A program made the position numbers and the translations under genes. Of a stretch of 64,000 nucleotides of DNA, positions 40,323 through 62,742 are shown piece after piece; the stretch's first letter is position 1; every line of letters begins with the position of its first letter. This DNA is from Acinetobacter piscicola (GTDB lineage Bacteria; Pseudomonadota; Gammaproteobacteria; Pseudomonadales; Moraxellaceae). Below the pieces are notes generated by a model, which saw only the letters and a list, made by a program, of their open reading frames with translations, ran no database searches and had not been told where the DNA came from. The stretch is from assembly GCF_015218165.1 (NCBI RefSeq), contig NZ_CP048660.1, positions 120,102 through 184,101 on the forward strand, written 5' to 3'.

Positions 40323-40834
40323 TTAGGCGACTTCCTTACGGATTTCGCTGGCTTTCTGCTTCGTAGGGCGACCTTTACCGCATCTTCCCTCCACAGACAA
40401 AACGGTGTGCCCCACCGCCAAAATGTTGCGAGAAGCGTTTATATCCGCATTCTCACTAAAGCCACACTCAATACACTCAAATTTTGCCTGAGTGAGCCTA
40501 TTTTCTTTTGCAACATGACCGCATGAACTACAAGTCTGACTTGTATATTTGGGGTCAACTTTAACGAGTAAACCACCTCGCCATTGTTGCTTGTACTCCA
40601 ACATACCCACAAGCATTGACCAACCTTGATCTAGGATTGATTTGTTTAAGCCTGATTTGGCTTTCACATTCTTTCCTTTTTTCTCAATTGTTCCGCTTGC
40701 TGACTTCGACATATTGGCTACTTTTAAGTCCTCAACTACGATCATTGCGTGGTTTTTGCTGAGAGTTGTCGTGACTTTGTGTAAGTAGTCATGCCGAATA
40801 TTGGCAATATGATGGTGTAACTTGTTAATTTTTA
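40323..40834 (-). pseudogene. tnpB: TnpB, C-terminal part (split by IS1)
   Basis: Encodes the second half of the RNA-guided TnpB nuclease. Visible are IVVEDLKVANM with the RuvC Glu, a four-Cys zinc ribbon (CSSCG ... CIECG) and ENADINASRNI with the last RuvC Asp. It is cut from its N-terminal half by the IS1 at 40835-41622. The frame continues a few codons into IS1, so the apparent start MSAYFLKHH is IS sequence. Confidence 0.88.
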
Positions 40835-41622
40835 GGTGGTGTTTCAAAAAGTATGCTGACATTAAATGAAGCCATTATTGATGTAAAAAAAGGTTAAGTC
40901 GAAAGCTTTAAAATGGTTTTCAATCTTTTTTGAAAAATTACAACTCCTTCTAAAACCGCGCCTAATTCGATGCCTTATTTTGCAATTATTACCTTCAATA
41001 CCTACAGTAAAAAATTTACCAATACTTTGCTTGCAGTTTTTAAAAGCAGTTATGAAACTGTCCCAATGATCACTTGCAATTCGGGTGTAGTGAATACCTA
41101 ATTGTTTAAGCTTTGCCTTCAATCGTTGAACTGTAGCTAAGTCTCTTTTACCCCAAACATAAGCAACAATCTCACCTGTTTCTCGATGGTAGGCGTAAAT
41201 AAGCCATTGTTTATTATTTTTATTTCCCACAAAAGTCCAAAACTCATCAACTTCAAGAGACTCATAATGACTTTGTTTAGGCTGAATTTGGTAGGTCGAT
41301 TCGGTTAAAGTACGTAAAACTTTACCGATACTGATTCGCTCAACTTCAGCGATATCTCGTATACCACTACCTCTGACCATCAACTGTAATATTTTTCGAG
41401 TAATGCCTGAATGACATCCTAGATAGCTCAGAGCATGGTCACCAATAAACTGACGTTTACAGTCTTTGCACTGATAGTTTTGTTTCCCATCTACTTTGAT
41501 GCCATTTTTCTTTATACTGTCACTGAGGCAGGTTGGACATTTGATTTCTAGAGTTATTCGCATTTCTCTATTTTATCAAAATTCAACCTGCTTTGTTTCA
41601 GCATACTTTTTGAAACACCACC
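40835..41622 (-). mobile_element. IS1-family element, 788 bp, with 8-bp target duplication
   Basis: Perfect 25-bp terminal inverted repeats (40835-40859 and 41598-41622) begin GGTGGTGTTTC and end in AGTATGCTGA. They are flanked by direct repeats AATTTTTA at 40827-40834 and 41623-41630. The duplication and perfect ends show a recent, simple insertion into tnpB. Confidence 0.95.
40862..41563 (-). CDS. IS1-family transposase
   Basis: 233 residues in a single frame. The N-terminal zinc ribbon has CPTC then YQCKDCKRQF, followed by a helix-turn-helix (GSGIRDIAEVERISIGKVLRTL). The DDE domain shows LEVDEFWTFVG, YTRIASDHWDSF and the C-terminal GNNCKIRHRIRRGFRRSCNFSKK signature of IS1. No frameshift is needed, as in the single-ORF IS1 relatives. 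It appears intact. Confidence 0.93.
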   Translation of the reverse strand: MRITLEIKCPTCLSDSIKKNGIKVDGKQNYQCKDCKRQFIGDHALSYLGCHSGITRKILQLMVRGSGIRDIAEVERISIGKVLRTLTESTYQIQPKQSHYESLEVDEFWTFVGNKNNKQWLIYAYHRETGEIVAYVWGKRDLATVQRLKAKLKQLGIHYTRIASDHWDSFITAFKNCKQSIGKFFTVGIEGNNCKIRHRIRRGFRRSCNFSKKIENHFKAFDLTFFYINNGFI

Positions 41623-42423
41623 AATTTTTAAATTAAGTTTTTTCCAATTTTTGCTGAATTTTGTTTTCTTTTTTATCTTGCGTTGAAGTCTAGCCAACTT
41701 TACTTGATTGGCTTTAAAACTATTGATCGGGTCGAAAACCTGACCTGTTGAGGTTGTCACCAATTTTTTGATGCCAAGATCAACACCAATGGCTGATTTT
41801 GATGGATGGATAGGGGTTTCTAATGTGCTTTCAACACCAAAAGAAATATACCACTTCCCAACATGCTTTGAGATTGTGACGTTTTTAATATCACCTAAAA
41901 TATCTTGTGATTTTCTGAATTTCACAACACCAATATCGTTAGGCAACTTAACCTGATTGCCTTTAACCCAACAGTATCTATCAAACTGAACAATACGAAT
42001 CGAATCATAACCATCGGATTTCTTTTTAAATCGTGGCATGAGTGGTCGAAGTTGAACTTCACTGCCATCCGCTAATTTAAAGAATTTTGGTTTTTTAGGC
42101 TTGAAAGGCTTTTGTTTTAACTTGGCTTGTTCTTTTTTATCGAAGAATTTAGCCCAAGCATCGCCAAGATCACGAACTTTTTGTTGAAGTGAAACACCAT
42201 TTGAACTGTTTTCTAAAAAAGCACATTCAGGCTTTTTGCGTAGTTAAGGGATTTTATTAACTAAATTAACTTTATTGATTCGCTCATTATTAGCAAGCAT
42301 CTCAAATGAGAGAGCTAATATTTGATTCCAAACAAAACGTGCAGAGCCAAGCAACTTGTTTAAAACAAGCTCCTGTTCCGCATTAGGCTCAAGCCTAAAT
42401 TTATACGCTTTGTTGATTTTCAT
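41623..42423 (-). pseudogene. tnpB: TnpB, N-terminal part with nonsense codon (split by IS1)
   Basis: The ATG at 42423 opens MKINKAYKFRLEPNAEQELV, the normal TnpB start. A TAA at 42244-42246 interrupts the frame after KVNLVNKIP. The same frame continues LRKKPECAFLENSSNGVSL to SAIGVDLGIKKLVTTS (first RuvC Asp) and ends at the IS1 junction after NLKI. With a stop codon and an insertion, the nuclease is dead. Transposition would rely on TnpA alone. Confidence 0.88.
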
Positions 42424-42481
42424 AAATGAGTGTGTATGTGTTAATATATATAAATACTAGCATTAAACAAGCATTCAAACA

Positions 42482-42880
42482 ATGACTGAAATATATAAAA
42501 ATCGACATTCAGCCTTTAATTTACACGTACATTTAGTATTTATTACCAAGTACAGAAAGAAAATTTTAGGTGAGTTGCATCATAAATATTTTACTGAGTG
42601 TGTGTCTGAAATTTGCAAAGAATTTGATGCGGAATTAAAGGAATGTAATGGTGAAGCTGACCATATTCACATGCTTATTCAGTATCCACCGACAGTTCAG
42701 CTTAGTAAATTGGTGAATAACTTAAAATCAGTAACAAGCAGAAAAATGAGGAATGAGTTTTTAGATTTACGTGGTAGTTATGCAAAACCTGTTTTGTGGT
42801 CACGCTCATATTTTGCAGGGTCGTGTGGTGGTGCTTCTTTGGACATTATTAAAACATATATTCAAAACCAACAAGGTTAA
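42482..42880 (+). CDS. tnpA: IS200/IS605 TnpA, Y1 HUH transposase
   Basis: 132 residues, full length for the family. Contains NLHVHLVFITKYRKKIL, the HUH pair in EADHIHMLIQYPP, and the catalytic Tyr near residue 127 in IIKTYIQNQQ. It excises and inserts single-stranded IS DNA using the subterminal hairpins. It appears intact and divergent from the dead tnpB. Confidence 0.93.
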   Translation: MTEIYKNRHSAFNLHVHLVFITKYRKKILGELHHKYFTECVSEICKEFDAELKECNGEADHIHMLIQYPPTVQLSKLVNNLKSVTSRKMRNEFLDLRGSYAKPVLWSRSYFAGSCGGASLDIIKTYIQNQQG

Positions 42881-43096: not shown

Positions 43097-43125
43097 TTGA
43101 CCAAAGAAAAAGATACCCATATGAT
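43097..43125 (+). promoter_or_regulatory. Sigma70-like promoter for structured RNA, copy A
   Basis: TTGACC (43097-43102), 17-bp spacer, TATGAT (43120-43125). The predicted start, 7 nt downstream, is G43132, the first base of the conserved RNA. Copy B has the same boxes, spacer and start distance. Confidence 0.78.
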
Positions 43126-43131
43126 AATTAC

Positions 43132-43339
43132 GTTACAGCAAAATCTGTAATCGGGCGTGGAAACCTGAAAATTACTACAGAAGCATTAAAACCGCTTTAG
43201 CGGTTTTTTGTGCTTATTATGCTTAGTTTGCCATTATGGTAGGCCAGGCAGGGCAGTCTATGACTGGCCGTCTTCTGTAGTGCGGTATTTCCACCCCTGT
43301 TTGGTCTACCTCCATCTCGTGGAAAAGATGGTTGTAGAT
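43132..43339 (+). ncRNA. Conserved structured RNA upstream of DUF262-HNH gene, copy A
   Basis: P1: GTTACAG/CTGTAAT with loop CAAAAT (43132-43151). P2: CGGG/CCTG with loop CGTGGAAA (43152-43167). P3: 43174-43183 pairs perfectly with 43272-43281 (ACTACAGAAG/CTTCTGTAGT). It encloses a terminator-like hairpin AACCGC-TTTA-GCGGTT-TTTT and a GCCAG/CTGGC hairpin. TTTCCAC at 43288-43294 is complementary to the P2 loop. P6: GTCTAC/GTAGAT (43304-43309, 43334-43339) encloses CATCT/AGATG, again with loop CGTGGAAA. Compared with copy B, P1, P3 and P6 keep pairing through paired base changes. No ORF is conserved. I do not recognise the family. The 3' end is not defined by sequence. Confidence 0.82.
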
Positions 43340-43536
43340 AGTTAATTCTAAACTACAGGTACTAAACATGAAGATTTTATTATCTAATCCCCCCATTTCT
43401 CTTAGGTCTCTTTTGTTAGCGCTGACTGGATATTGACGGTCATTTAATTCACAGCTTTAACCAAATCGAACTATATACATTTTCAAATTTCGTACTTGAG
43501 CGAAAGTAGGAAAGTGTTGCCTGGAGAAAATAAGAA

Positions 43537-45192
43537 ATGGGTTCTACACGACTATTGACCAATATTATTCAGCGTAAAGTCATGTTGCCAGAAGAAATGT
43601 CACCTTCAATGCAGCGTGACAATTTTGAAGTGGCACTGACTGATTTTGAAAAGCATCCAATCATCAAATGTTTATTTAAGGCGGATAACCAGCGTTCTAC
43701 GGAATGTTGGAGCGTGCAAGAAATTGCAAACTTTATTGAGGATTGCACAGAAGATCAAAACATCAATTTATGCATTTTGTATTGGAAAGATATACACGGC
43801 AATATTTACATTATTGATGGAGCACATCGTCTTTCCTGTATCTATGCGTGGATTAATAGATATTTTGCGGATGAGCAAGTCACTCAATCACCTAATTTCA
43901 ATGATCCACAAAAACAAGATATTCGTTACCTCCGCAATTATTTAGGAGATCTCGCTGATTTTCAAAAAATTTGTACTGATGCCGAATTCGCAGAAAAAAA
44001 ATCGAAATTAGGCGATATTAAAATCAGTTTCAGGCAGGTACTGGGAACTCCGGAAGATGCGCGACGGGTATTTCAATCGATTAACTCAGATACTAAACGT
44101 TTAGATAAATATGAGGAATATCACCTAAGAAATCGCGGTAGTGACGCGTATTATGCGATCTATGCCTGTTGTTATATCAATGACAATAAATCTAACCTAG
44201 AAGAGCTCCAATATACACGTTTAAATGAGTTGATTGAGTTAGGGGAGAGGATCCACCAGTTACTTTTTTCGACCATTTTATTAGACAATGAAATGAGTCA
44301 TGGCAAAAAAATTGGCTTGGTCAATGAGCTGATGAATATCATTGCGGGTGATCAGATTCATAATATTATGAGTCTGAATCAGGGGGAGCGCGTTGAAAAC
44401 CTAATGTCGCATCTGTTGACCATTCTTTGCAGAATAGCGACGCCTGTAAAAAATGCTGGGGTTCCGAGTTTGGGCTTACATCCATACTTATATTTTTATA
44501 AGGATCAGCGTTTTCAGATTACTTCTTTTCTTGCATGGTTTTCAATTGTGTATGAAATTCATGAAAGCCGCATGCAGATTCATCATCGAAAGATTAGTTT
44601 CAAGGACTTCACCCGGGTACGCCGTAGTATTGAGTTCTTGATCGCCAATTTCCCCGTGGCGACCACCGAAACGGTCGGCAAGTTCGGCAGTGGTATCAAG
44701 GGCTATGATCGGCTACAAATTGTCTATAAAGCCTTTATTTGCTTAAGCTTGGAAATGGAGGTTGATTTTGATGATGAGAAATGCCTGAATACCTTTATTC
44801 TGTCCATGTCTAAGGCCTTCAAGTACATAAACTTTAACGAGTTCTATGTCGAAAGGTTTTTGGGTGGTTATGATGATGCAGTAGTCAAGAATGTGGTGGG
44901 ATATGTGGAGTCGATTAGTCCAATTTCTCGGTCAAAGCCAAAGGCCTTTTCGGCATTAACCAAGAGTCTGCTTAAGCACAATTTTCTGGTGGGTAATCAT
45001 AACTTTTGCCTCATTTGTGATGGATTGATCTATCTTGATTCTACTGAATCGGATCATAGGATTGCCAAAGCCGTAGGTGGGCAAGGCGTTCTAGAGAATG
45101 GCCTGCTAGTTCATCCCATCTGTAATAGGATGAAATCAGATCTGAGCCTGGAAGAGATTAGAGCGGATTTGTTTGGTGAATTACTGTATTGA
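43537..45192 (+). CDS. DUF262-like + HNH endonuclease fusion protein, copy A
   Basis: 551 residues; GGAGA lies upstream of the ATG. The N-terminus has the DUF262/ParB-like signature: DNQRSTECWSVQEIANFIED (~50-70) and IIDGAHRLSCIYAW (IDGxHR at ~93-98). Residues ~120-480 are helical and unrecognised. The C-terminus is an HNH nuclease: FCLICD (~490-495), ESDHRIAKAVGGQG (His ~507), and HPICNRMKSD (~526-534). DUF262 plus HNH in one chain resembles GmrSD/SspE-type modification-dependent restriction proteins, but the family is not identified. It is paralogous to the gene at 49643-51277 and follows the same RNA. A terminator lies at 45341. Confidence 0.82.
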   Translation: MGSTRLLTNIIQRKVMLPEEMSPSMQRDNFEVALTDFEKHPIIKCLFKADNQRSTECWSVQEIANFIEDCTEDQNINLCILYWKDIHGNIYIIDGAHRLSCIYAWINRYFADEQVTQSPNFNDPQKQDIRYLRNYLGDLADFQKICTDAEFAEKKSKLGDIKISFRQVLGTPEDARRVFQSINSDTKRLDKYEEYHLRNRGSDAYYAIYACCYINDNKSNLEELQYTRLNELIELGERIHQLLFSTILLDNEMSHGKKIGLVNELMNIIAGDQIHNIMSLNQGERVENLMSHLLTILCRIATPVKNAGVPSLGLHPYLYFYKDQRFQITSFLAWFSIVYEIHESRMQIHHRKISFKDFTRVRRSIEFLIANFPVATTETVGKFGSGIKGYDRLQIVYKAFICLSLEMEVDFDDEKCLNTFILSMSKAFKYINFNEFYVERFLGGYDDAVVKNVVGYVESISPISRSKPKAFSALTKSLLKHNFLVGNHNFCLICDGLIYLDSTESDHRIAKAVGGQGVLENGLLVHPICNRMKSDLSLEEIRADLFGELLY

Positions 45193-46998: not shown

Positions 46999-47112
46999 AT
47001 CAAAACCCAAAGACTTTTCAGCATTAACCAAGAATGTGATCAAGCATAATTTCTACTCCATTTGTGATGGATTGATTTACCTCGACTCGATTGAGTCAGA
47101 TCATCATGATTG
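46999..47112 (+). pseudogene. Remnant of a third DUF262-HNH gene (C-terminal part)
   Basis: Bases match 44931-45058 of copy A with gaps: TCAAAACCCAAAGACTTTT, AGCATTAACCAAGA, CATTTGTGATGGATTGAT, and a TTGAGTCAGATCATCATGATTG end that covers the HNH Asp-His. The GG...CN half of the motif is missing. After it come 3'-flanking words shared with copy A and an equivalent terminator, so a whole 3' module end was duplicated and then decayed. Confidence 0.82.
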
Positions 47113-47181
47113 AGCTACAGTCGCTTACTGAAAGTAGCGAGAATTGCGCTGGAGTTTCTGAAGGATATTAATTCCTTAGTT

Positions 47182-49229: not shown

Positions 49230-49258
49230 TTGACCAATTGAATTTATGCACATAAGAT
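49230..49258 (+). promoter_or_regulatory. Sigma70-like promoter for structured RNA, copy B
   Basis: TTGACC (49230-49235), 17-bp spacer, TAAGAT (49253-49258), with predicted start G49265 exactly at the first conserved RNA base. The spacer sequence differs from copy A while the boxes and distances match. Confidence 0.78.
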
Positions 49259-49264
49259 AAAGAT

Positions 49265-49462
49265 GTTACAGCAAAATCTGTGACCAGGCGTGGAAACCTG
49301 TTACTCAACGAACTAAAGAGTCGCTTTTAGTGGCTCTTTTGTGTCTACATGGCGCTTTTATGGTAAGCCAGGTAGGGCAGTCTTTGACTGGCCGTTTCGT
49401 TGAGCGGTATTTCCACACCCTATTTGGTTTGCCTCCATCTCGTGGAAAAGATGTTGGCAAAC
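49265..49462 (+). ncRNA. Conserved structured RNA upstream of DUF262-HNH gene, copy B
   Basis: P1: GTTACAG/CTGTGAC, loop CAAAAT. P2: CAGG/CCTG, loop CGTGGAAA (49285-49300). P3: 49304-49312 CTCAACGAA pairs with 49396-49404 TTCGTTGAG and encloses a hairpin AGAGTCGC/GTGGCTCT followed by TTTT, and GCCAG/CTGGC. TTTCCAC lies at 49410-49416. P6: GTTTGCC/GGCAAAC (49427-49433, 49456-49462) around CATCT/AGATG with loop CGTGGAAA. At five P3 positions and at least two P6 positions both partners differ from copy A while pairing is kept, which supports RNA-level selection. The gap to the HNH start codon is ~180 nt, as in copy A. Confidence 0.82.
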
Positions 49463-49642
49463 GACAATCTATCAACGAGGTTTAAAATGCATCTTTATAT
49501 TATTTCTATCTGTTTTTTCTCTAGCAAAAAGATACTTCTGAGTTGATGAGTTTTTAATTCATTTATCACTGATTTTAATTTTAATTACTTCTAATTTCGT
49601 AATCTCACGAGATCTAGAGAAGTATTGCCTAGAGAAAATAAA

Positions 49643-51277
49643 ATGGCTCGTACTAAGCTTTTAACCAATATTATTCAAAGAAAAATGATGCTGCTTGACG
49701 AAATGTCGCACTCAAATCTGCACCATAACTTTGAAATATCACTTTATGACTTCGCCAACCATGAGATCCTAGAAAAACTATATAAAGCAGACAATCAACG
49801 CTCCACAGAGTGTTGGAGCCCTGCTGAAATTCAGGAGTTTATTCTAAACTGTTTGAATGATCGTAATGTCAATTTATGCGTTCGCTATTGGAAAGATGCT
49901 GCTGGTAATATTTATATCATCGATGGTGGGCACAGGATTTCAATTATCTATGCTTGGATCAAAAGATACTTTATTGATGAGCAAGTAGCAGGAGCCCCAA
50001 AATTCACGGCACCACAAAAACGAGATATTCGTCAGATTCGTAATCGATTAGGTGGATTAGCTGATTTTCAAGAGTTATGTAACGATTCTGAGTTTCAGCA
50101 AAAATTAAAATCAACCAAAATTAATTTTATTGAAGTCATTGGGACACCTGAGGAAGCTCGAAAAGCCTTTTGTTCAATCAATTCGGATACGAAGCGATTA
50201 GATCCAGATGAAGAATATCATTTACAGAATAGGGGGAGTGATGCTTTTTATGTGATTTATGCGTGTTGTTATATAAACGATAATAAATCCAACTTGGCTG
50301 AACTGAATTACGAGCGGATAAATGAAGTGATCACTTTGGGTGAGCAAATTCATGATCATCTTTTTAAGATAATACTTTTAGAGCCGGATTTAACACACGG
50401 TAAAAAAATCGGCTTGGTCAATGAACTCCTGAATATCATGTTTGGTGATACTTGTCAGAATAATGTGAGTATAGACCAAGGTCAGCGTGTAGAAAATTTA
50501 ATGCTAAAACTTAGAGTTGTGCTGTGTCGTATCGCTACACCAGCAATTAGTATTCGGATTCCAAGTCTGGGCTTACACCCAAAACTATATTTTTATAAAG
50601 ATAATCGTTTTCAAGTGACATCCTTTTTGGCCTGGTTCTCTATCGTCTGTGAAATTGAAGAAGACTGTTTTGAAATACAGAATAAAAAGATAGATTTTAT
50701 TGGATTTACTCGAGCACGCCGTGGTGTTGAAAGTTTAATTGAAAAAATTCCTGTGGCGATCAAAGAAACTGTCGGTAAGTTTGGTAGCGGGATCAGATCA
50801 CATGAGCGATTGAAAAACGTCTATCAAGCATTTATCTGTATTGGACTCAATATGGATTTAGATTTCGAAGATGAAGTTTGTTTGAACACCGTCATTCTTT
50901 CGATGAGTCAATCATTTGATTATATTAATTTTAATGATTTTTACCTTGAACGTTTTGGTGGTGATTATGATGAGACCATTGTGGATGATGTTGTGAGCTT
51001 TGTGAAATCAGTAAGACTAACAAAGAAGAAAAAACCTCTAAATTTTTCACTCGCGACCAAAAGAAATCTTTATCAACGTGAGGAAAGGAAAACATGGAGC
51101 TATTGCGAAGTATGTGATAGCGCTCTATACCTTGAATCGACTGAAGTAGATCATCGAGAATCGAAAGCAGAAGGTGGTTACGGTGTTTTAGAAAATGGAG
51201 CAATTATTCACCCGATATGTAATCGTTTTAAGTCAGATCGTGCTTTGGAAGAAGTAAGAGCAGATTTATTTGACTAA
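49643..51277 (+). CDS. DUF262-like + HNH endonuclease fusion protein, copy B
   Basis: 544 residues from the ATG at 49643, whose MARTKLLTNIIQRK aligns with the start of copy A; an upstream TTG (49625) is rejected. It has the same layout as copy A: DNQRSTECWSPAEIQEFI, IIDGGHRISIIYAW (IDGxHR), a long helical middle with KETVGKFGSGIR, and a C-terminal HNH with CEVCD, EVDHRESKAEGGYG and HPICNRFKSD. It is diverged from copy A throughout but colinear, so the duplication is not recent or the copies arrived separately. It follows RNA copy B and ends at a strong terminator. Confidence 0.82.
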   Translation: MARTKLLTNIIQRKMMLLDEMSHSNLHHNFEISLYDFANHEILEKLYKADNQRSTECWSPAEIQEFILNCLNDRNVNLCVRYWKDAAGNIYIIDGGHRISIIYAWIKRYFIDEQVAGAPKFTAPQKRDIRQIRNRLGGLADFQELCNDSEFQQKLKSTKINFIEVIGTPEEARKAFCSINSDTKRLDPDEEYHLQNRGSDAFYVIYACCYINDNKSNLAELNYERINEVITLGEQIHDHLFKIILLEPDLTHGKKIGLVNELLNIMFGDTCQNNVSIDQGQRVENLMLKLRVVLCRIATPAISIRIPSLGLHPKLYFYKDNRFQVTSFLAWFSIVCEIEEDCFEIQNKKIDFIGFTRARRGVESLIEKIPVAIKETVGKFGSGIRSHERLKNVYQAFICIGLNMDLDFEDEVCLNTVILSMSQSFDYINFNDFYLERFGGDYDETIVDDVVSFVKSVRLTKKKKPLNFSLATKRNLYQREERKTWSYCEVCDSALYLESTEVDHRESKAEGGYGVLENGAIIHPICNRFKSDRALEEVRADLFD

Positions 51278-52855: not shown

Positions 52856-55800
52856 ATGCAATTAAATAACAATGGTTCTAGTACTGAACTAAGTACACTC
52901 GCACCTAAAATAATTCTTTCCCCTTTATTAAAAGCCATGGTGGGGACTCTTAAAAACCATCAATCAGATCATTTCTTCAATTATTATGGGCCTTCTCATA
53001 ATCTGCATTTTGATGCGACCGCTTTTGTGTCTGCAGTATTTAAGCAGATCGGGACTAAAAACGATTCAAAGCCAATTTATAACATCATCAAAGATATTCA
53101 ATTATTACCTGAAGATTCAAAACTCAGAATAAGCACTTTATTTGATAAGGAATCTGAAGCTAAAACTGCCCAGACCTATCGTGATTTAGACCAAGTGATG
53201 TCTGAAATTGTTCAGCAAGTACTTCAAAATGCTCCGACAGGTATGGCACTGAATTCTCTCAACCAATTCTTAGGCGATCTCAAATATTCTGATCCAGTGA
53301 TTGCCAAAAATTCTCAGTATCCTATGCAAGTCAAAGGACAATCTAAAGTAGCTTCTTTGCAATATACAAACGACTTAAAAGCAAAAGATGGCGAATTACG
53401 ACTTTTCACTGTTACTGAAGAAATCAGCAAACCTCAATGGGTGAAAGAGGTTTGCGAGGCAATCAAAGCCATTGTGAAGCAGTCCTACCCAGCTGGTGAA
53501 AAGATGCCATTAGAGGTTGCTGAACGTATGCAGGAAATTCTTGATGATGAATGTTCTGCTGAAAATAATGATATCCAAAATCTACTTCATTTCGTAGAAA
53601 TCAAAGCACTATCACGAGCTCGTATCCGAAATTGCTTCAAAATTATGGAAATCATTGCGGATCACATTGATAAGACTGAGCGTAACGATTTCAAGCGTGA
53701 GTCCGCTGTTTCCTATATCCGTAAAGCAATTGCTTTCTTTCAGATTTTTGGTAATCGAATTGCTCCATGGAATGAGGAAACAACGGAAACCATTAAGGAC
53801 TATGGTATTGACTTTGGTGCTATCTATGGAGCTGTAGGTAAAGTTGATTTTAATGGTTTGCTGGCCTATGTTGGGGCAACAGATGCTTTGCCAATCTGGG
53901 TAAAACCAAAAATTGAAATGAATGATATTCGTCATGAGGATAAGGAAGGGCTATCTCTAAAACGTGAAGTCACTTATGCCTTTCGGGTGAATGGGGAGTT
54001 TGTTAAAGAGGAAAAAGTAAGTTCATTTAACTCTAAGTTGCAGATCAATTATAAGACAAGCAAATGCAACCGTTCGGGTGCAGATACTATGCTGACTGCT
54101 TATGAAGCTCGTCTGCATACTATCAATAAAGCATTGCTGCTGAAGGATATTGTTGATGATAAAGGTCAGCCGATTTCTGAAGAACGATTAAGCAAAGAGT
54201 GCTCAGATCGCGTTGCTCAAGTAGAGATGTTCCAGCTCATTATGATGTACTTCGTCCTATCTGGGGCAGACATGAAGATTTCAGATTTTGAAGGGGCATT
54301 CAATAAACTGGTTGATGCATTCAAGAATCCTCAAAAAATCCGACTTAACCTTACTCGTATCTTAGACGAAAAGCTCAATACCGAAAAAATGCATGAGCGA
54401 ATGGAGGTGATCACGTCTACGATCACTACAGCGCTAAAAGCGAATCTGGATTCCATCATTAGTGAGATGGAAAAGGATAGTAGTCTTAAAACTGTACTCT
54501 ACATCCTTCCAAGTATTGTGAATCTAGATGTATTCAAGAGTTCAATTGGTGAAGATGCGGAACAGTTCTTTAGTATATTTAAGGGTAAAGAATCGAACTT
54601 TTACAGCTACATCTCGATAGTGGATGCTAGCCGTAAAAAGTTGGCGAAAATGAGCCAAGACGAAATCATTCGAAAGAATGATTATGCTCGTAAAGCCCTA
54701 AGCGAGATTGAGTTTAATTCCACACTGAAAATTCGAACGTTGGTACCGATTGAGAATCCTAATACCGACCTAGATCAATTTGATGTCGCTCGTAATCTGA
54801 ATATTCCTTGTTTACCAGTATTGATGGTGCCGACCAACAAGAAGGTCAGCGACAATGGGCTGCCACATTTTTATCATCCTGAGAGCTTAAGTTATGACAA
54901 CTTGTTATCTAAATACAAGGTCATGATTCATTATTCATCTAAGCTATTTCGATTGAGTGACTTAAAAGGCGGCCATGCTCAATTATGTTTGGATGAAAAA
55001 GAAAATGCTTTGATCATCAGTACGTCATGTTTTTCGATTGCGATTCATCTATTCCTTAAACATCTGATTAAAGAAGTAAAAAATCAACTGGGTATCGAAG
55101 AGCGCTTATATGTACCTGTAATGCGAATTGACTCAGTTGATGAACATGAGAATGAAGAAAAAGCCCAATTTCAAAGGAAATCAAAAAAGATCCAAAAAGG
55201 TGGGTTTAATCCTGAGTGTAAACGAGCGTATGCCACCGCTTATACCCTTGAGAAGTTGCTGAACAATGATGATGCTATTGTGAAGGTACAGGGCCTTAAG
55301 TATCAACCAGATCCTATGCCTTATGGTAATCAAAATGGTGAGCGAGTTTGTGCCCCGGTGAATCTCGCTATGGATAAAACAGTGACTTACCGTATTCAGG
55401 CTGCAATTGAAGCACTGTCAGGATATTCAGAAATCATCATCCCATTTGAGGGCACTAAGGACAAAATTGCCTGTATTAGTTATAACTCTCGACCTGAGAA
55501 TGATGTGGAATTTAAGTATCAGCATCAGAAGGATTTGCTACTTCTTAAACCAGATTATGGCTACATCTGCTACGTCTATACACTTGAGCGTATCAACGAT
55601 AAACAGGGTCGCTTATCACTACAGAAGGTCAGTCATGCCCCAGTTGCTGAAGACAATCTGAGAACAAGTAAGGCGATGCACCGTATCATCGAAAAACTGC
55701 AGTCAGATGGTTTTGAAGATGTTGTATTGCTTTCACACCATTTTGCACAGCGTAAGATCGGTAAGACTGAAACCAGCAACTTGATTCATGAAAGTGAAAG

Positions 55801-56431
55801 TGCTTTGGATCAACTTGATCAGTTGTTCCCGAATATGAATTTCTATCCATTCCAGTCTGATACGATCCCAGCACTGAGCTTAAAAACCAGTGATAACAGT
55901 CGTGTCTATGAGGTACCGCACCATCAGTACCATACTGCGATCATCAATCAAAAAGAATATAAACAATCCTTGTCCGTATATAGCTTTGCGACTAAACGTA
56001 CTGTGGGTGTTCGTACTCAGAATGGTATTTGTTCGTATTTCTATATGCTAACCAGTCAGGAGCATTCGATTCATAACGATAAGCGAATTAGATTGCACAG
56101 TAAAATTATTGATGTGAATGATTCCAATGAAATGAAATCAATTCGCTCTGTATTGCGTGGTCTGCATTACTTTGAGTCTGAACGTCCTACAGCTGGCAAA
56201 AACTTCACTCCGGTACTTGAGCCTTCCCATATTCGTGGCACTACTGGCATTCAAGAGCTTGGTGAAGTCATAGTGTCGAGTCGTCTAAATAAAGGCGAAG
56301 TTGTCATGAGTCTGCCAGCCTTAATCGGCAAGCTCGAAGAATACGTTATTCTGATGAATGAAGACTTGATTGAGCCAATCGAGCCGTCTCCAGAGGGAGC
56401 TGAAGAAATTTTAGCGACTGATGTGGAGTAA
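52856..56431 (+). CDS. Large protein of unknown function, first gene of a putative three-gene defence operon
   Basis: 1,191 residues, no family recognised; no signal peptide or membrane helices. The N-terminal half is helical (QVMSEIVQQVLQNAPTGMAL, KAIVKQSYPAGEKMPLEV). The C-terminal half (~640-1170) alternates beta and alpha and ends with RGTTGIQELGEVIVSSRL. No Walker, HNH, PD-(D/E)xK, DEDD or DNA MTase motif could be found. The RBS is weak. It ends 5 nt before the helicase gene, with that gene's RBS in its last codons, so the two are coupled and probably form a complex. The upstream 140 bp after the hnh remnant should hold the operon promoter. Confidence 0.72.
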   Translation: MQLNNNGSSTELSTLAPKIILSPLLKAMVGTLKNHQSDHFFNYYGPSHNLHFDATAFVSAVFKQIGTKNDSKPIYNIIKDIQLLPEDSKLRISTLFDKESEAKTAQTYRDLDQVMSEIVQQVLQNAPTGMALNSLNQFLGDLKYSDPVIAKNSQYPMQVKGQSKVASLQYTNDLKAKDGELRLFTVTEEISKPQWVKEVCEAIKAIVKQSYPAGEKMPLEVAERMQEILDDECSAENNDIQNLLHFVEIKALSRARIRNCFKIMEIIADHIDKTERNDFKRESAVSYIRKAIAFFQIFGNRIAPWNEETTETIKDYGIDFGAIYGAVGKVDFNGLLAYVGATDALPIWVKPKIEMNDIRHEDKEGLSLKREVTYAFRVNGEFVKEEKVSSFNSKLQINYKTSKCNRSGADTMLTAYEARLHTINKALLLKDIVDDKGQPISEERLSKECSDRVAQVEMFQLIMMYFVLSGADMKISDFEGAFNKLVDAFKNPQKIRLNLTRILDEKLNTEKMHERMEVITSTITTALKANLDSIISEMEKDSSLKTVLYILPSIVNLDVFKSSIGEDAEQFFSIFKGKESNFYSYISIVDASRKKLAKMSQDEIIRKNDYARKALSEIEFNSTLKIRTLVPIENPNTDLDQFDVARNLNIPCLPVLMVPTNKKVSDNGLPHFYHPESLSYDNLLSKYKVMIHYSSKLFRLSDLKGGHAQLCLDEKENALIISTSCFSIAIHLFLKHLIKEVKNQLGIEERLYVPVMRIDSVDEHENEEKAQFQRKSKKIQKGGFNPECKRAYATAYTLEKLLNNDDAIVKVQGLKYQPDPMPYGNQNGERVCAPVNLAMDKTVTYRIQAAIEALSGYSEIIIPFEGTKDKIACISYNSRPENDVEFKYQHQKDLLLLKPDYGYICYVYTLERINDKQGRLSLQKVSHAPVAEDNLRTSKAMHRIIEKLQSDGFEDVVLLSHHFAQRKIGKTETSNLIHESESALDQLDQLFPNMNFYPFQSDTIPALSLKTSDNSRVYEVPHHQYHTAIINQKEYKQSLSVYSFATKRTVGVRTQNGICSYFYMLTSQEHSIHNDKRIRLHSKIIDVNDSNEMKSIRSVLRGLHYFESERPTAGKNFTPVLEPSHIRGTTGIQELGEVIVSSRLNKGEVVMSLPALIGKLEEYVILMNEDLIEPIEPSPEGAEEILATDVE

Positions 56432-56436
56432 GCGCC

Positions 56437-59400
56437 GTGGTGAACAATGAAGCCAAAGTTTGGGGCGAGGTTTATGAGATCGCTGTTAAACGTGGTTCGA
56501 TTATGGCTTTGCTTGATGCAAAGCTATTATCAGCCAGCCATCCTGTAGTAGCAGAATGGAATAGTAAACAGATTGCTGATGTCTTTCAGGAAATGAAGGA
56601 AGCGCTATATAGCGATGTCATTAATGCCGCTATCCATGAAAATATCGAAAGCTATTTTCAGCAATTGATAAAAACTGGATTCGGGCATGGTTATACCAAT
56701 ACTCGTGAGTTTCTAAGAAAGATCAAGCCAAAAGGTATTGCAAGGGCTAAAACGGCGAATGCAAGACCAAATTGGAGCTTATCTGGCATCTGGTGTCCAC
56801 TGACAATGCCAAATGATATAACCCAGACCATTGTAGATGACTACACAACTGAGGAAGAACATATTGCTATTAAAGCCTTCAAGGAGAAGGCGTTGGAAAC
56901 ATGGAATCAACAATTCAGTCTTACCCACGCTAAAATGTTTGGTAAGGGTATGTTTGGTCGTGCTGATTTCTTGGCGGTAATCAAAGTCAAAGCCAACTAT
57001 CATGTGCTGGTTCAGGAATATTCATTATTTTACGTTTTAGGTGAACCAGAACAATTCAATGCCAAGGATTCTTGTACCTATTTGCAAGAGTACAAGCGTT
57101 ACATCAAACATTCTGAATCGCAAAGTGTTTTCTCATACGTGAATGCAGAAGCTCAAGAGATCCCATTTAAGTTCTCAAAAAAACTACGTGAATACTTGAG
57201 AGCCTATGTCCGTAAGGAAAAAGTCCTATTTAAGATGGCGCAAGGCTGTTCGTATGCAACCACTTTTGTTGATTCTTTTAAATGGAAGTTTGAACAAGAT
57301 GACATGCCAAATATTCGTCTGAGTGTGATGGCGATCACCAGCCGGGGAAGTGAATACATTTCTGCTGAATTTTCGGATAAAGATAAATCCCCAGAGCTGG
57401 AAATTATGTATCAGCTGGGCAAGGAGTATCAGGATAACGTTCTGAGTCTGGACGATATGGATGAACGTACGAAACTGCAAGTTGAGATTCTGAATTATCT
57501 GGTGAATGAACCTGTCAAAAACATCTCGGAAATCGTGTCCAAAAATATTAGCGATATTTCCTACGGTCAGGATCTTACTTTCACTATTACCGAAAGGCTT
57601 AAGGATTTTGTGAATCCTAACCAGCCACTGGCTTTAGAGTGGGTTTTTGACTTGATAGATCGGCAAGTCGATGACGAAGACCATAACCAAAAACTTAAAG
57701 AGATGGTGCTGGCTGAGTTTAAAACAATTCGTAAGGGAAAAATTGAGAATAAAACTTCATTCACCTTACGTGATTTGCATAAATCCGCCGTAGTACTGGC
57801 ACTGAAGGAAAGTAAACAAGGCCAAGTGAATTTCATCTGTTTGACTGGTACGCCGGGGATTGGGAAAACATCGAGCGTTAAGACTTTGCTGGCAGATTTG
57901 GAAGGCTTTTTTTTCTTTTATACCAGTCCACGAGTGTTGATTAACGATGATGTGGTCAGTGATTTATCTAAAATATCAGCTACGATTACCAGTAACAGTG
58001 ATGTGGTGACACAGGCACAGCAAATCTATTCGAAGATTCACAATACGGATTGTAAGGTGAATGCGCGTGGTGCCGCTATTGTGGGTGGTGTTGAAGATAT
58101 GAAGATAGATCATGGCTCAAGTGTTCTATTGTTCAAACAAGATGAATACCGAAAGCTCAAAGACCTGGAACAGAATGCAAATGCCAATAGACGCTATGCC
58201 AATACTTCAGAATCTAAAATTACGGCAACCAATAAGAAGTTTGCCAGAGTGTTTGATTCATTAGGGGAAGCGACCCAGCAATTACTTGTATTCCATCCAG
58301 AGCTCAATAAACTGACGATGACTGTAGCAAGTCAGGCATTCATGCCATATAACACCACACCAGCTGGACCACGAAACCCAAGGGAAAACCAAAATAAAAC
58401 TGTGGCAGCTTCCAGTTTGGATGGGCTGGAAAAAATGTTCCAATACAAAATCGATAAGAAGCCGACAGAGGCCAAAATCGAACGGAGAGAGTTTGCCAAA
58501 AAGTTCCCTAACATTGTGGTGATGTTTGATGAAATTACAGGGGATTCAGGTACACGTACTTTTATCAATGAGATGCTGAAATTCCTTTCCAAAAACTTCA
58601 TTGAACCGTTTCAAGGTAATTCTCCATTTACGGTGACTGTGATTCTTGCAGATGCATCCCTTAGTAATGTGAATGCAATCCAAAATTACATGAAGAAACA
58701 GGACCAGTTACCAGCAAAAATGTTCATCTCTCCATCTTTGGGTAATTTCCCATTCAAGATGCAGACTGCAGATCTGGATGATGGTAACTCTGTTCGTTCT
58801 AGTATCCATATCATGGCGAATTGTTACCCGGCAAGTGATCTTAAAATCCAATATATGCTCAAGCAATACGCCGTAGTCCCTGAAACAGATGATTTTGGAT
58901 TGGATAAGAACCTGACTCATCTATTTCGCCAGAAAGCTGGGGAAAGGACTCAACAGACTGCTATCGAGCTTATTCAAAAGAATCTTGAAGATGGTAAAAA
59001 GCAAGTTATCTACTTTGCTCAGGATAAAAATGCATTGGCCGCACTCAGAGATGCATTAGTCGATGAAGGAGTGGTTGGACGCTCTAAGATTGGCATTTTT
59101 GATAGCCAGTTAATGGGATACCACCGTACAGAGTTGCTGGATCGCAAAGAGACATTGCAAGTCGTACTGATTACTTCGACTGCGGCTAGGGGGATTTCAT
59201 TCCCGAACTGTGATTCAATCATTGCTGCCATGCCTCGTTTCGCAATTGAAGCCTCTTTAATGGAAATCGCCCAGCTTGTTTACCGGGGACGTGGTGGATA
59301 TTTGGATAAAGAGAAAAATGAGTGGGTCAACGGCGATGAACGTGATCGTTTGCTGACGATTCTGGTAGAAGATTTCTACTTGGTATCTAATGATGAAACT

Positions 59401-60420
59401 CAGACAGAGCTTGAATATAAAGTTAAGAGCTCATTGGATATGCTCTCAATTTTCATGCTTATTCGTGGGACTTTATACACTCGTATCACTGGGGATGCTG
59501 GCTTCAAAAAAACTCAGATCGCCATGATCCCAATTGGTGAGGTGAAAGATAAGACCAGTGATAAACCGGGGCTGGCTTCTTTGATCAGGGATTTCATCAA
59601 GGACGTGAATAGTGTTCTTTATAAGATTACTGCAACCGAAGGTGAGTTGGTTGGAAGGCTTAAGGCTGTGGTAGAGAAGGCTCAAACAGTTTACTCAGCA
59701 AATAAGCTCACTTCTACCTATAGTACTAAGACCAACAAATACCGAAGTTTTTACACACCTGCATTAACGCCTGAGTTAAAAGAACTTCAGTTCTACGAGA
59801 AATGGTGCCGGGAACATCATTCGCTTAAGTCCAGATTACTCACCATTAGCGATCAGGAAGATGCTTTGACGATTCCTGAAAATATCTATATCTGTGGGCC
59901 TATGATCATGGAAGATCGCTCAAACTTCGGTAACAAGGAGTCGTTTGATATTGCCAATGACAATCTCTCACAAAATTCTTTAAGGAAGTTCCTAAATGAG
60001 TTAATCGCCCTGCAGAGGGGATACCCTCAGTTGAATGCTTATAAGAACATTCAAAAGCATATCAGGGAGATCACGAATATGATTTCTTCTGTTCTTGAAT
60101 CAGAAACGGATAGCTATACAAAGGAAGTTGAGCAACAGGGAATGATGCGTAAGCTCTGGGTGACGTACCCGGTAGCGGCAAACGAGCTGGTTAAACTTCA
60201 AGACAAGAACTTTGATAAAGACTGGTTTGATGCATTGAGCTTTGAGCTGAGAGTGAGGAATGCAGAGTTTCCGGTAATGCCAGAATATCGGGATCATCCA
60301 TTTCGTGGTACTCAGCAATTATCAGGGCATCCAGTGTTTGAAAGGTTGTTCGAGCAGACAAATTTCATGCTTTGTCGTGAATTAAACTTGGTGAATACTT
60401 TGACTATGTTTAATGAATGA
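56437..60420 (+). CDS. Large SF2-like helicase/ATPase, second gene of the operon
   Basis: 1,327 residues; start GTG 56437 with GGAG ~9 nt upstream. Walker A is LTGTPGIGKTSS (~469-480), Walker B is IVVMFDEITGDS (~692-703), and motif IV-like KQVIYFAQDKNALAALRDAL is near 850-870. Motif V is LITSTAARGISFPNCDS (~910-925) and motif VI is QLVYRGRGGYLD (~945-955). About 215 residues separate Walker A and B, far more than in ordinary helicases, so the first RecA fold carries an insertion. The N-terminal ~450 residues have no assigned domain; KGMFGRADFLAVIKVKANYH and QEYSLFYV are vaguely nuclease-like but not convincing. The last ~350 residues are unassigned. Confidence 0.78.
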   Translation: MVNNEAKVWGEVYEIAVKRGSIMALLDAKLLSASHPVVAEWNSKQIADVFQEMKEALYSDVINAAIHENIESYFQQLIKTGFGHGYTNTREFLRKIKPKGIARAKTANARPNWSLSGIWCPLTMPNDITQTIVDDYTTEEEHIAIKAFKEKALETWNQQFSLTHAKMFGKGMFGRADFLAVIKVKANYHVLVQEYSLFYVLGEPEQFNAKDSCTYLQEYKRYIKHSESQSVFSYVNAEAQEIPFKFSKKLREYLRAYVRKEKVLFKMAQGCSYATTFVDSFKWKFEQDDMPNIRLSVMAITSRGSEYISAEFSDKDKSPELEIMYQLGKEYQDNVLSLDDMDERTKLQVEILNYLVNEPVKNISEIVSKNISDISYGQDLTFTITERLKDFVNPNQPLALEWVFDLIDRQVDDEDHNQKLKEMVLAEFKTIRKGKIENKTSFTLRDLHKSAVVLALKESKQGQVNFICLTGTPGIGKTSSVKTLLADLEGFFFFYTSPRVLINDDVVSDLSKISATITSNSDVVTQAQQIYSKIHNTDCKVNARGAAIVGGVEDMKIDHGSSVLLFKQDEYRKLKDLEQNANANRRYANTSESKITATNKKFARVFDSLGEATQQLLVFHPELNKLTMTVASQAFMPYNTTPAGPRNPRENQNKTVAASSLDGLEKMFQYKIDKKPTEAKIERREFAKKFPNIVVMFDEITGDSGTRTFINEMLKFLSKNFIEPFQGNSPFTVTVILADASLSNVNAIQNYMKKQDQLPAKMFISPSLGNFPFKMQTADLDDGNSVRSSIHIMANCYPASDLKIQYMLKQYAVVPETDDFGLDKNLTHLFRQKAGERTQQTAIELIQKNLEDGKKQVIYFAQDKNALAALRDALVDEGVVGRSKIGIFDSQLMGYHRTELLDRKETLQVVLITSTAARGISFPNCDSIIAAMPRFAIEASLMEIAQLVYRGRGGYLDKEKNEWVNGDERDRLLTILVEDFYLVSNDETQTELEYKVKSSLDMLSIFMLIRGTLYTRITGDAGFKKTQIAMIPIGEVKDKTSDKPGLASLIRDFIKDVNSVLYKITATEGELVGRLKAVVEKAQTVYSANKLTSTYSTKTNKYRSFYTPALTPELKELQFYEKWCREHHSLKSRLLTISDQEDALTIPENIYICGPMIMEDRSNFGNKESFDIANDNLSQNSLRKFLNELIALQRGYPQLNAYKNIQKHIREITNMISSVLESETDSYTKEVEQQGMMRKLWVTYPVAANELVKLQDKNFDKDWFDALSFELRVRNAEFPVMPEYRDHPFRGTQQLSGHPVFERLFEQTNFMLCRELNLVNTLTMFNE

Positions 60421-60455: not shown

Positions 60456-61469
60456 GTGCATATACCTGCTGCACAAGAACAACTTAAATTCTTAAAAAAT
60501 ATTCAGCTGATTTTACAGTCGGGTAGTTTTAGTAGCACCTATAAATTTGCGTTGCTGATTAGCCTAAGCCGATTAGCTATTGAAAAAGGTAAAGATTCAG
60601 GTGAGAGTCTATCACTCGAATATACGGATATTGCTGAGAAGTTTATCGAGCTATATTGGAAGCAAGCAGTGCCATATACCTTTAATGATGAAGGCCAACT
60701 GATCTTAAATCAAAATAATGGTAAGCAAGCAGCGATTGTAAATCGAATCATTGGGCTTCGTCAGAGTTACTCATCCCTTGGACTGTTAAGACGAGATTCA
60801 TTAGTGTGGTTGAAGCTAGTTAAAGATGTCGCTCGCACTGTAAAAGACATGCCAGTCCGTTATCTGCAAAACATCAATGGACAAAACTTTGAGTTTCTAT
60901 ACCGGCTTGAGCAATCAGGGAAGCAATTAATTTTATTACCGCAAGTCATGTATTGCTTACGACAATTTAGTGAAATTATTGAAGAACTCTGTCAGAAGCG
61001 CTGGATTGATTATATTCGTAGAAATAGTAGTAATGCCGAGATTTTGAATAAGTTACCAAACCTTGAGCAATTTATGTTTGAGCCGAGCCGAAATCAGCTT
61101 AATGCAGTTGCTACAGTATTGGTAGAGATGCAGGAGTGCAGATGCTTTTACTGTAATAAGGAAATGAAAAAGAATAATTACGCCGTAGACTATTTTATTC
61201 CTTGGTCAATGTATCCATCAGATACCGGGCATAACTTTGTGTTAGCCGATTCCCGCTGTAATTCTAAGAAAAGCAATCTATTGGCCTCACATGAATTTCT
61301 TTATAAATGGCAAGAGCGTAATGAAGAACAGGATTTGATTATTGTGGATCGGATATCAGTGCTCGGTTTTTTAACAGATAAAGAGCGGTCACATAAAGTG
61401 GCGGAGTGGGCATATGCTCAAGGGAAAGAAAATAATTATTTAATGTGGATGGGGGAAAATAGCAAATAA
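60456..61469 (+). CDS. HNH endonuclease, third gene of the operon
   Basis: 337 residues from GTG 60456, with AGAGGA 7 nt upstream. The C-terminal HNH module shows CFYCNKEMKK (~230-238), AVDYFIPWSMYPSDTGHNFV (~243-262) and CNSKKSNLL (~268-276). The His of the usual DHxxPWS box is Tyr here, so metal-dependent cleavage must use another residue (for example the His in TGHNF) or may be lost. The N-terminal ~220 residues are helical, and its start is duplicated as the remnant at 52637. It lies 35 nt after the helicase stop, in the same operon. Confidence 0.82.
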   Translation: MHIPAAQEQLKFLKNIQLILQSGSFSSTYKFALLISLSRLAIEKGKDSGESLSLEYTDIAEKFIELYWKQAVPYTFNDEGQLILNQNNGKQAAIVNRIIGLRQSYSSLGLLRRDSLVWLKLVKDVARTVKDMPVRYLQNINGQNFEFLYRLEQSGKQLILLPQVMYCLRQFSEIIEELCQKRWIDYIRRNSSNAEILNKLPNLEQFMFEPSRNQLNAVATVLVEMQECRCFYCNKEMKKNNYAVDYFIPWSMYPSDTGHNFVLADSRCNSKKSNLLASHEFLYKWQERNEEQDLIIVDRISVLGFLTDKERSHKVAEWAYAQGKENNYLMWMGENSK

Positions 61470-61526
61470 ATCATGGCTCCCCTGAGATTAGACTAAAAAT
61501 CCAATTGCTTTAAAAATACCGTAAAA

Positions 61527-61559
61527 AATGTTTACTGTACATTTGCTATGGGGTAATCT
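61527..61559 (+). promoter_or_regulatory. Candidate brxR promoter with overlapping operator palindrome
   Basis: AATGT-N7-ACATT forms an inverted repeat at 61527-61543. TTTACT (61531-61536), 17 bp, then TAATCT (61554-61559) could be -35 and -10 boxes, so a dimer bound at the palindrome would cover the promoter. BrxR proteins are known to repress their own promoters through inverted repeats. Confidence 0.5.
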
Positions 61560-61589
61560 TAAAACTACTATTTATTGACTGATTGGTAT

Positions 61590-62456
61590 ATGACGACAGA
61601 TAAGCATGAAGTCCTTCTCAGAATGAGAGCCATTGAACTCCTTGCATACTGGGAAGGTCGTTTGGTTACCAATCGTTTGATGAGCTGGTTTGGATTGAGT
61701 CGACAGCAGGCTTCTGCGGATATCAAGCGCTATAATACGCTGTATAACCCCGATGCCTTGATTCATGATCCCTCAGTCAAGGGTTATGTGCCTAAGGCCA
61801 GCTTCCAGCCTGTACTGACTACAGCGCATATCAATGAATATCTCAATATGCTGTCAGGTTTGGTTAGTGAATCGCATGCCCTGATTGCGACACCAGAACC
61901 GAATCTTGCAGCAGTTCAATTACCTGATCGCAGTGTACGTCCTGAAGTGATTCGGGAAGTTTTGCGTGCCTGTCGAACACAAAGCTGTCTCAAAATTATT
62001 TATGCCTCCATGCAGAATCCGCAGTGGCATGAACGCATCATTTCCCCACACACCCTGGTGTATACCGGTTTTCGCTGGCATGTCCGTGCCTATTGCCATC
62101 AGAGCAAGCAGTTTAAGGACTTTTTACTCTCCAGAATTGATCGTACACCTGTTGTGGTGGCGATTGAGTCAGTAGACCCTGCTCAGGATCAGCAATGGCA
62201 TGAAGAAATTGTACTGACGCTGATCCCTAATCCAAAATTGAATGAAGCTCAAAAAGCGCTGGTCGAAAAAGACTTCGGCATGCCTGATGGCAGATTACAG
62301 ATTTCGGTCAAAAAAGCCCTGGCTCACTATACTTTGCAGCGATATCAGGCCGCGATCACGCTGGCTGAGGCGGATGATGCCTTGAAATATCCCTTGGTAC
62401 TACAACGCTCAGATATCGAAAAGCTGTCGTCTTACCTGTTTGATCAAGCTTCATAG
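61590..62456 (+). CDS. brxR: BrxR, WYL-domain transcriptional regulator of BREX
   Basis: 288 residues; ATG 61590 is preferred over TTG 61575. The N-terminal winged HTH (LLAYWEGRLVTNRLMSWFGL, SRQQASADIKRYNT) is followed by a WYL domain with CLKIIYASMQNPQWHERIIS and HTLVYTGFRWHVRAYCHQS, then a C-terminal WCX-like region (LTLIPNPKLNEAQKALVEKD). The family binds inverted repeats as a dimer and represses BREX operons. It is 10 nt upstream of brxA with the brxA RBS overlapping its stop region, the standard BREX order. Confidence 0.9.
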   Translation: MTTDKHEVLLRMRAIELLAYWEGRLVTNRLMSWFGLSRQQASADIKRYNTLYNPDALIHDPSVKGYVPKASFQPVLTTAHINEYLNMLSGLVSESHALIATPEPNLAAVQLPDRSVRPEVIREVLRACRTQSCLKIIYASMQNPQWHERIISPHTLVYTGFRWHVRAYCHQSKQFKDFLLSRIDRTPVVVAIESVDPAQDQQWHEEIVLTLIPNPKLNEAQKALVEKDFGMPDGRLQISVKKALAHYTLQRYQAAITLAEADDALKYPLVLQRSDIEKLSSYLFDQAS

Positions 62457-62466
62457 GAGATTGGCC

Positions 62467-62692: not shown

Positions 62693-62742
62693 TGAACCGT
62701 ACCGGGTTTGTCGGAGACCAAGCTTTCTGAGAGAATGTCCCG

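Follow-up and report, generated by a model that had tools for sequence, protein, structure and literature searches.

A phage-type isrK–C4 RNA pair lies ahead of DUF262-HNH nuclease genes in Acinetobacter and may control them by base pairing

Two genes for DUF262-HNH nucleases lie in a 64-kb stretch of Acinetobacter piscicola DNA (the window), and each is preceded by a non-coding block. An initial annotation took this block for an undescribed structured RNA with its own promoter, which raises the question of what the RNA is and what it does in front of a nuclease gene. Judged by Rfam, both blocks (copies A and B) are a pair of known RNAs, isrK (RF01394) followed by the C4 antisense RNA (RF01695). 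Because both models match over their cut-offs and position 1 of the isrK model is the very start that had been predicted, the block is a known pair and not a new family, and C4-like RNAs have already been described in A. baumannii (PMC5320573, available in part). What is new, as read from the sequence, is the setting: in Acinetobacter a phage RNA switch stands ahead of a restriction-type nuclease and not a phage gene. We consider it likely, from sequence, predicted folds and analogy, that each copy is an antisense switch of the kind found in phages P1 and P7 and in Gifsy-1, with a DUF262-HNH nuclease, resembling type IV restriction enzymes, as the cargo that it would keep in check.

Parts of the two RNA blocks

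Both copies carry promoter-like sequences (TTGACC-17 bp-TATGAT or TAAGAT), and GTTACAG stands at the predicted start, as had been pointed out (Table 1). Each isrK exceeds the gathering score and ends in a terminator, the two marks of its family. The marks of C4 are likewise present in both copies, namely the score, a long P1 helix (15 bp in copy A and 13 bp in copy B), and a’ and b’ words whose complements lie downstream, at a ribosome site, and again upstream. In P1-type C4 RNAs, a’ and b’ match a1 and b1 upstream, and a2 and b2 downstream at a ribosome site; Rfam lists the upstream words as a family of their own, RF03163 c4-a1b1 (‘a1, b1 targets of C4 antisense RNA’). The a’ and b’ loops are also described for the A. 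baumannii RNAs, and GGT at 43238, on the 5’ side of copy A’s C4, fits the RNase P motif GGW reported for C4 (PMC5320573, available in part).

Table 1. Positions of the RNA elements, pairing words and genes of copies A and B in the window
Copy	Feature	Position	Strand	Remarks
A	Promoter, sigma-70-like	43097..43125	+	TTGACC 43097-43102, 17 bp, TATGAT 43120-43125; consensus only
A	isrK RNA (RF01394)	43132..43210	+	58.9 bits, cut-off 50; GTTACAG begins at 43132
A	b1 word	43157..43163	+	GTGGAAA, in isrK hairpin
A	a1 word	43174..43183	+	ACTACAGAAG; 5’ side of P3
A	Intrinsic terminator	43188-43209	+	3’ end of isrK, inside P3
A	C4 antisense RNA (RF01695)	43232..43316	+	62.1 bits, cut-off 45
A	C4 P1 helix	43238-43252 / 43296-43310	+	
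A	a’ antisense word	43272..43281	+	CTTCTGTAGT; P3 partner
A	b’ antisense word	43288..43294	+	TTTCCAC
A	P6 strands	43304-43310 / 43330-43339	+	
A	b2 target word	43319..43325	+	GTGGAAA
A	a2 target word	43352..43358	+	ACTACAG, at leader ORF ribosome site
A	Leader ORF	43368..43436	+	22 codons
A	Nuclease ribosome site	43523-43527	+	GGAGA; predicted partner probably 43395-43406 (by eye)
A	DUF262-HNH nuclease	43537..45192	+	551 aa; Pfam profile matches
B	Promoter	49230..49258	+	TTGACC 49230-49235, 17 bp, TAAGAT 49253-49258
B	isrK RNA (RF01394)	49265..49340	+	50.8 bits, cut-off 50; GTTACAG begins at 49265
B	b1 word	49290-49296	+	GTGGAAA
B	a1 word	49304-49312	+	CTCAACGAA; 5’ side of P3
B	Intrinsic terminator	49315-49340	+	Terminator of isrK
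B	C4 antisense RNA (RF01695)	49356..49439	+	52.1 bits, cut-off 45
B	a’ antisense word	49396-49404	+	TTCGTTGAG; P3 partner
B	b’ antisense word	49410-49416	+	TTTCCAC
B	P6 strands	49427-49433 / 49456-49462	+	
B	b2 target word	49442-49448	+	GTGGAAA
B	a2 target word	49472-49478	+	
B	Leader ORF	49487..49546	+	19 codons
B	Nuclease ribosome site	within 49625-49639	+	Predicted partner probably 49515-49529 (by eye)
B	DUF262-HNH nuclease	49643..51277	+	544 aa; 62% identical to copy A

Most of the pairings first noticed in the two copies find their place in this scheme. The P3 helix, present in both copies as described, corresponds to a1 and a’ of the C4 switch, and the loop word GTGGAAA, found twice per copy with its complement TTTCCAC once, corresponds to b1, b2 and b’. 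For the helix called P6, both strands are there, but their pairing is barely above that of mixed controls (8.1 bp within modules versus 7.3 bp in mixed pairs, 45 modules). Since its first strand is used by P1 of C4 as well, on the 3’ side, P6 and P1 are mutually exclusive, and with so small an excess over mixed pairs P6 is at most an alternative hairpin that would expose b2. Three features had gone unmentioned: the terminator inside P3, a short leader ORF and, just 5’ of it, another occurrence of the P3 word, the third (a2).

Joint change of the pairing words

To test these words, we collected 85 isrK-C4 modules, made up of the two window copies, locus L012, 12 loci from a contig collection and 70 isrK places from a search of 175 Acinetobacter genomes, and reduced them to 48 with less than 90% identity. 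Thirty of the 70 places rank highest, and the other 40 were taken nearly in rank order below these; G020:C8, G049:C3, G032:C55 and places weaker than about E 1e-6 were left out. The score was the longest word common to isrK and the target with its complement in C4, and 7 nt or more was counted as a hit. For the a word, such triples were found in 40 of the 48 Acinetobacter modules versus 0.3% of 5000 draws that mixed modules, and for the b word in 45 of 48 versus 0.1% of 13003 mixed draws (what was left of 20000 after draws with equal words had been dropped). The eight a-word misses reached 6 nt (L015, L018, L120 and L127), 5 nt (L068, L115 and L122) or 4 nt (L049). The three b-word misses were L049, which is interrupted by an IS, and L115 and L122, whose blocks seem to be cut off past isrK. 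Because the words themselves vary widely from module to module, the three places must change jointly, which bears out the earlier view that the RNA is under selection for pairing. With these three modules left out, the C4 P1 helix averaged 14.4 bp within the remaining 45 modules versus 8.8 bp in mixed pairs. Whole-duplex energies separated own from foreign partners weakly: C4 with its target gave -28.9 kcal/mol for own versus -24.5 kcal/mol for foreign partners (own partner best in 7 of 45), and C4 with isrK gave -26.8 versus -19.8 kcal/mol (best in 10 of 45).

These counts also bear on where C4 acts. The A. baumannii Group 1 C4-like sRNAs, which belong to the same family and the same genus, are expressed and seemingly processed at GGW, and have been proposed to act in trans (PMC5320573, available in part). 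By extension, the C4 RNAs described here might act mainly on unlinked genes or incoming phages, with the nuclease a mere neighbour. We find this very doubtful, as the 40 and 45 modules given above have their a2 and b2 words in cis, for the most part next to a start codon, and these words change together with C4. The neighbours and targets of the Group 1 sRNAs are not given in the available part of that account, whereas here cis targets can be named for seven C4 loci of a single genome as well as for the modules with an a-word triple. At each of the seven C4 loci of this genome, a word complementary to C4 stands just 5’ of a nearby downstream ATG, which makes cis targets the first candidates for the Group 1 sRNAs too. 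Four of the seven (L008, L009, L010 and L011) have no isrK over the cut-off and show C4-complementary words both upstream and downstream; by eye, three of these four look like satellite elements, and L010 adjoins a divergent gene that reads as a DUF262 protein.

Nuclease genes, other payloads and the surroundings

The genes downstream of the two C4 RNAs encode DUF262-HNH proteins and not antirepressors (ant), which are typical of phages and are not part of the C4 model. In copy A the GmrSD_N (DUF262) match scored 31.9 bits, just below the 33.2 cut-off, and the C-terminal HNH match (PF01844) scored 21.2 bits in copy A, just below the 21.4 cut-off, and 26.7 bits in copy B. DUF1524 gave no Pfam match in the nucleases at E≤1e-3, and at the same threshold, where a weak domain could be missed, no RuvC family was among the matches. 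Among the closest known systems is BrxU, a type IV enzyme of the GmrSD family. Like the present proteins, as far as their domain matches go, it joins DUF262 and an HNH-type nuclease on one chain, and it too belongs to a BREX island of a plasmid, in which a WYL regulator is also encoded. BrxU differs in having DUF1524 and in sitting between brxC and pglX, whereas here the HNH domain is a classical one (PF01844) and the gene lies 5’ of the WYL gene; the word ‘antisense’ is absent from the BrxU text (PMC8565348, available in part).

How regularly the RNA pair and the nuclease occur together was assessed in the 175 Acinetobacter genomes, 85 of which have isrK at E≤1e-3 (30 over the cut-off) and 32 of which have the nuclease family at E≤1e-20. 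Twenty of the 21 full-length nuclease genes of the clade with at least 60% identity have isrK (E≤1e-3) directly 5’, so that a non-coding block with a promoter-like sequence does regularly precede the gene, as had been suspected. One of the 21 genes (G019) is slightly short at its end, and of the 20 linked cases, G119 has an isrK below the cut-off score and G020 is linked only if its contig is circular. In the lone exception, G114, a leader remnant follows on another promoter-like stretch, an arrangement that L021 and L027 share. At L147, L021 and L027, another promoter-like stretch and a terminator, joined to a leader remnant, replace isrK-C4 before a near-identical nuclease gene.

The contig collection held 28 loci, and the first 20 searched yielded 12 with C4 and 11 with isrK over the cut-off. 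No C4 was found at the other eight, which comprise the relatives of about 50% identity L029, L030, L031 and L033, the truncated gene L020, and L021, L027 and L028. Seven distant loci of the collection had no isrK-C4 (L019 was left out of this search), and in the 175-genome search no isrK was hit beside the full-length relatives of about 50% identity in G120, G154:C61 and G155. The nuclease relative at L029 (Acinetobacter sp. B51) has a long CRISPR array on its 3’ side. Among plasmid records, 134 matched the protein (60 at 80% coverage or more and 74 without any place covering 80%), 128 of them from Acinetobacter, and 57 matched the RNA block, all from Acinetobacter. A scan of IMG/VR gave no confirmed relative. 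A 99% identical cassette at L014 lies on a contig labelled Kineococcus rubinsiae, probably a contamination.

Seen from the RNA, the 30 isrK loci over the cut-off comprise 17 with a nuclease start downstream, the IS-cut copy L049, L055, which runs off its contig end, and 11 with other payloads. Nuclease genes, near-identical or related, also occur without isrK-C4 (G114, L021, L027 and L028). Gene and RNA thus travel together, and neither requires the other, so the tie of the RNA to this nuclease family that had been proposed does not hold. Ten other payloads were scanned, six of them from the 11; seven belong to antirepressor families (Bro-N twice, P22_AR_N, pRha three times and ORF6N), and three had no Pfam match. 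Outside the genus, isrK occurs in 24 and C4 in 23 of 368 other genomes of the class. G251, of another genus of this class, has three isrK-C4 modules (L195, L196 and L197): one lies before a SymE toxin gene (PF08845, E 7e-13), and the other two lie before genes of 88 aa that match CsrA weakly and have C5 DNA methylases nearby.

This spread of payloads argues against the reading, which the nearby HNH gene might invite, that the HNH protein binds the RNA as its guide or scaffold in the way IscB binds omega-RNA. The same RNA families serve antirepressor genes, the protein’s relatives of about 50% identity show no such RNA, no RuvC family turned up among the Pfam matches at E≤1e-3, and Rfam gives no HEARO match at the gathering score in the window, in keeping with the initial annotation, which had set HEARO apart; we give this reading practically no credence. 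Of the roles that had been put forward (guide, antitoxin, sensor or regulator), regulator is the most likely, and nothing was found in support of a guide or a protein-bound sensor.

The nuclease cassette often adjoins a recombinase gene group or BREX genes. In the window, an HNH gene, a WYL regulator and a partial BrxA (60462-62700) form the start of a BREX locus that then breaks off, and an ALIL pseudoknot lies 3’ of it at 63018. Such pseudoknots are typical of IS3-like elements. Two large adjacent genes (52856-60420) for products of 1191 and 1327 aa also occur in G170 and G019; the 1327-aa product, which comes second, matches AAA/helicase families weakly. PADLOC gave no hits on the two genes, and they are a possible unknown defence pair. 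Elsewhere in the window, a 43-aa nuclease-like stretch (47000-47130) lies 3’ of an AAA_14/DUF4143 gene, a single open frame of 7443 aa on the minus strand (1811-24142) is built of near-identical repeats and looks adhesin-like by eye, and a TnpB-like gene, split by an IS1-like transposase, appears by eye beside a Y1 transposase gene (40323-42880).

Control of the nuclease through its leader

In the DUF262-HNH modules, the ribosome site at which a2 is found is that of a leader ORF of 19-22 codons, and an ORF of 19, 20 or 22 codons was found in all 17 distinct upstream sequences (32 nuclease modules). Fifteen of the 17 sequences were folded, with 100 shuffles each; L055 ended too early, which left 14 to be scored. 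In both copy A and copy B, the predicted fold of the leader covers the nuclease ribosome site. The predicted probability that this site is paired with the leader was 0.80-1.00 in 12 of the 14, above the mean of their shuffled counterparts (0.18-0.48), and five of the 14 beat at least 95% of their shuffles; the pairing was not seen in L015 and L062 (probability 0.08). Given this predicted pairing, the nuclease gene would be opened whenever the leader is translated and closed whenever C4 is bound to the leader.

The mechanism that we propose draws on Gifsy-1 isrK and P1 C4. One promoter would produce both a short isrK, stopped at the terminator, and a read-through RNA from which C4 may be cut. 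By pairing with a2 and b2, the a’ and b’ words of C4 would then mask the leader ORF’s ribosome site and so repress the leader; left untranslated, the leader is predicted to close over the nuclease ribosome site and keep the nuclease off. With a1 and b1 words identical to the targets, isrK would bind C4 and thereby release the leader and hence the nuclease. The sequence data suggest that base pairing of the isrK-C4 pair turns the DUF262-HNH nuclease on and off, and the regulatory logic of the cassette is strongly supported at the sequence level; a defence role for the nuclease is what we infer.

The arrangement resembles isrK-orf45-anrP of Gifsy-1, which also has an isrK promoter, an isrK ended by a terminator, a read-through RNA, a short ORF before the payload and complementarity to isrK downstream (PMC4825925, available in part). 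There, isrK supplied in trans raised anrP translation, largely via the upstream ORF, and translational coupling was measured for orf45; the predicted coupling of leader and nuclease fits this result as well as the icd step in the c4-icd-ant order of phage P1 (PMC8198154, available in part). In the authors’ model, isrK opens a cis structure whose inactive form is ‘structure A’ (PMC4825925). The predicted fold of the copy A read-through RNA, which pairs a1b1 with a’b’, resembles that form, and the lowest-energy fold of copy B leaves a1 unpaired. A stable RNA, STnc1160, arises 3’ of Gifsy-1 isrK, and the effect of isrK was stronger with STnc1160 co-expressed, which disfavours a simple C4-only model. 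The Gifsy-1 payload is a prophage antirepressor and not a DUF262-HNH nuclease, and C4 is not named in the available text of that account (PMC4825925). With the C4 of P1 and P7 (RF01695), the copies share the covariance model, the P1 helix, the 5’ GGT, a’ and b’, matching words on both sides and a short ORF before the payload; they differ in the payload and in not being on a phage.

The leader ORFs could instead suggest a type I toxin-antitoxin system, with the leader peptide as toxin and C4 as the antitoxin RNA. Their shortness and their hydrophobic look, judged by eye, would fit, but it is the position of the ORF that is conserved between the A and B types and not the peptide sequence, and prophage-type modules can have the payload’s own ribosome site as the target, which makes such a system most improbable.

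A variant of the proposed switch concerns its trigger. Phage infection might be sensed, with a phage antiterminator or a phage-encoded isrK-like RNA raising read-through or sequestering C4, so that the nuclease would be made only during infection. The cassette’s frequent BREX neighbours would suit this, as would terminator read-through, a known input in Gifsy-1 (PMC4825925, available in part), and isrK-C4 modules also precede phage antirepressors, several with the b word GTGGAAA. The phage record MF417929 has this b word too, and its RNA block matches copy A at 75% identity across 86% of the query. Neither ACTACAG nor TCAACG, however, occurs as the a word in any of the compared non-DUF262 modules or at the equivalent place of MF417929, and cross-talk via the a words is thus not expected in this sample; we regard phage sensing as possible, if rather unlikely. 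The MF417929 module itself (L141, uncultured phage 2F_1), which combines the b word of copy A with another a word, precedes small hypothetical genes and a replication-type gene.

Returning to the switch as proposed, its specificity appears to have been exchanged. Each of the two a words, ACTACAG and CAACG, occurs with A-type as well as with B-type nucleases. On a payload tree of 23 rows (21 with the cassette and two without; only three of 18 inner branches well supported), the a-word labels require eight changes, at least three of them forced by well-supported branches, and cluster no better than shuffled labels (mean 9.1 changes; as low in 61 of 200). Both words are scattered over the tree, and pairing specificity is thus exchanged between near-identical nucleases, which fits an advantage of acquiring a new specificity. 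One tentative idea, which we think unlikely, is that the cassette is a plasmid-borne ‘immunity group’ weapon. As C4 would act in trans and accumulate slowly, entry of the plasmid into a cell without a matching C4 would cause a burst of nuclease that attacks resident or competing DNA, and a cell of the same specificity would be protected. If so, the swapped specificities would reflect selection for new groups, like P1 versus P7, and this genome, which has the two specificities on a single contig, would be protected twice over.

An RNA switch of phage superinfection immunity thus appears to lie outside phages, before a restriction-type nuclease and often on plasmids. From the a and b words it can be predicted which cassettes should protect against which others. 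Together with the C4 modules before the SymE toxin and CsrA-like genes in G251, this setting suggests that RNA cassettes of this kind are a portable means of controlling harmful cargo, and the question of what many Acinetobacter C4-like sRNAs bind may be turned into a list of named cis targets.
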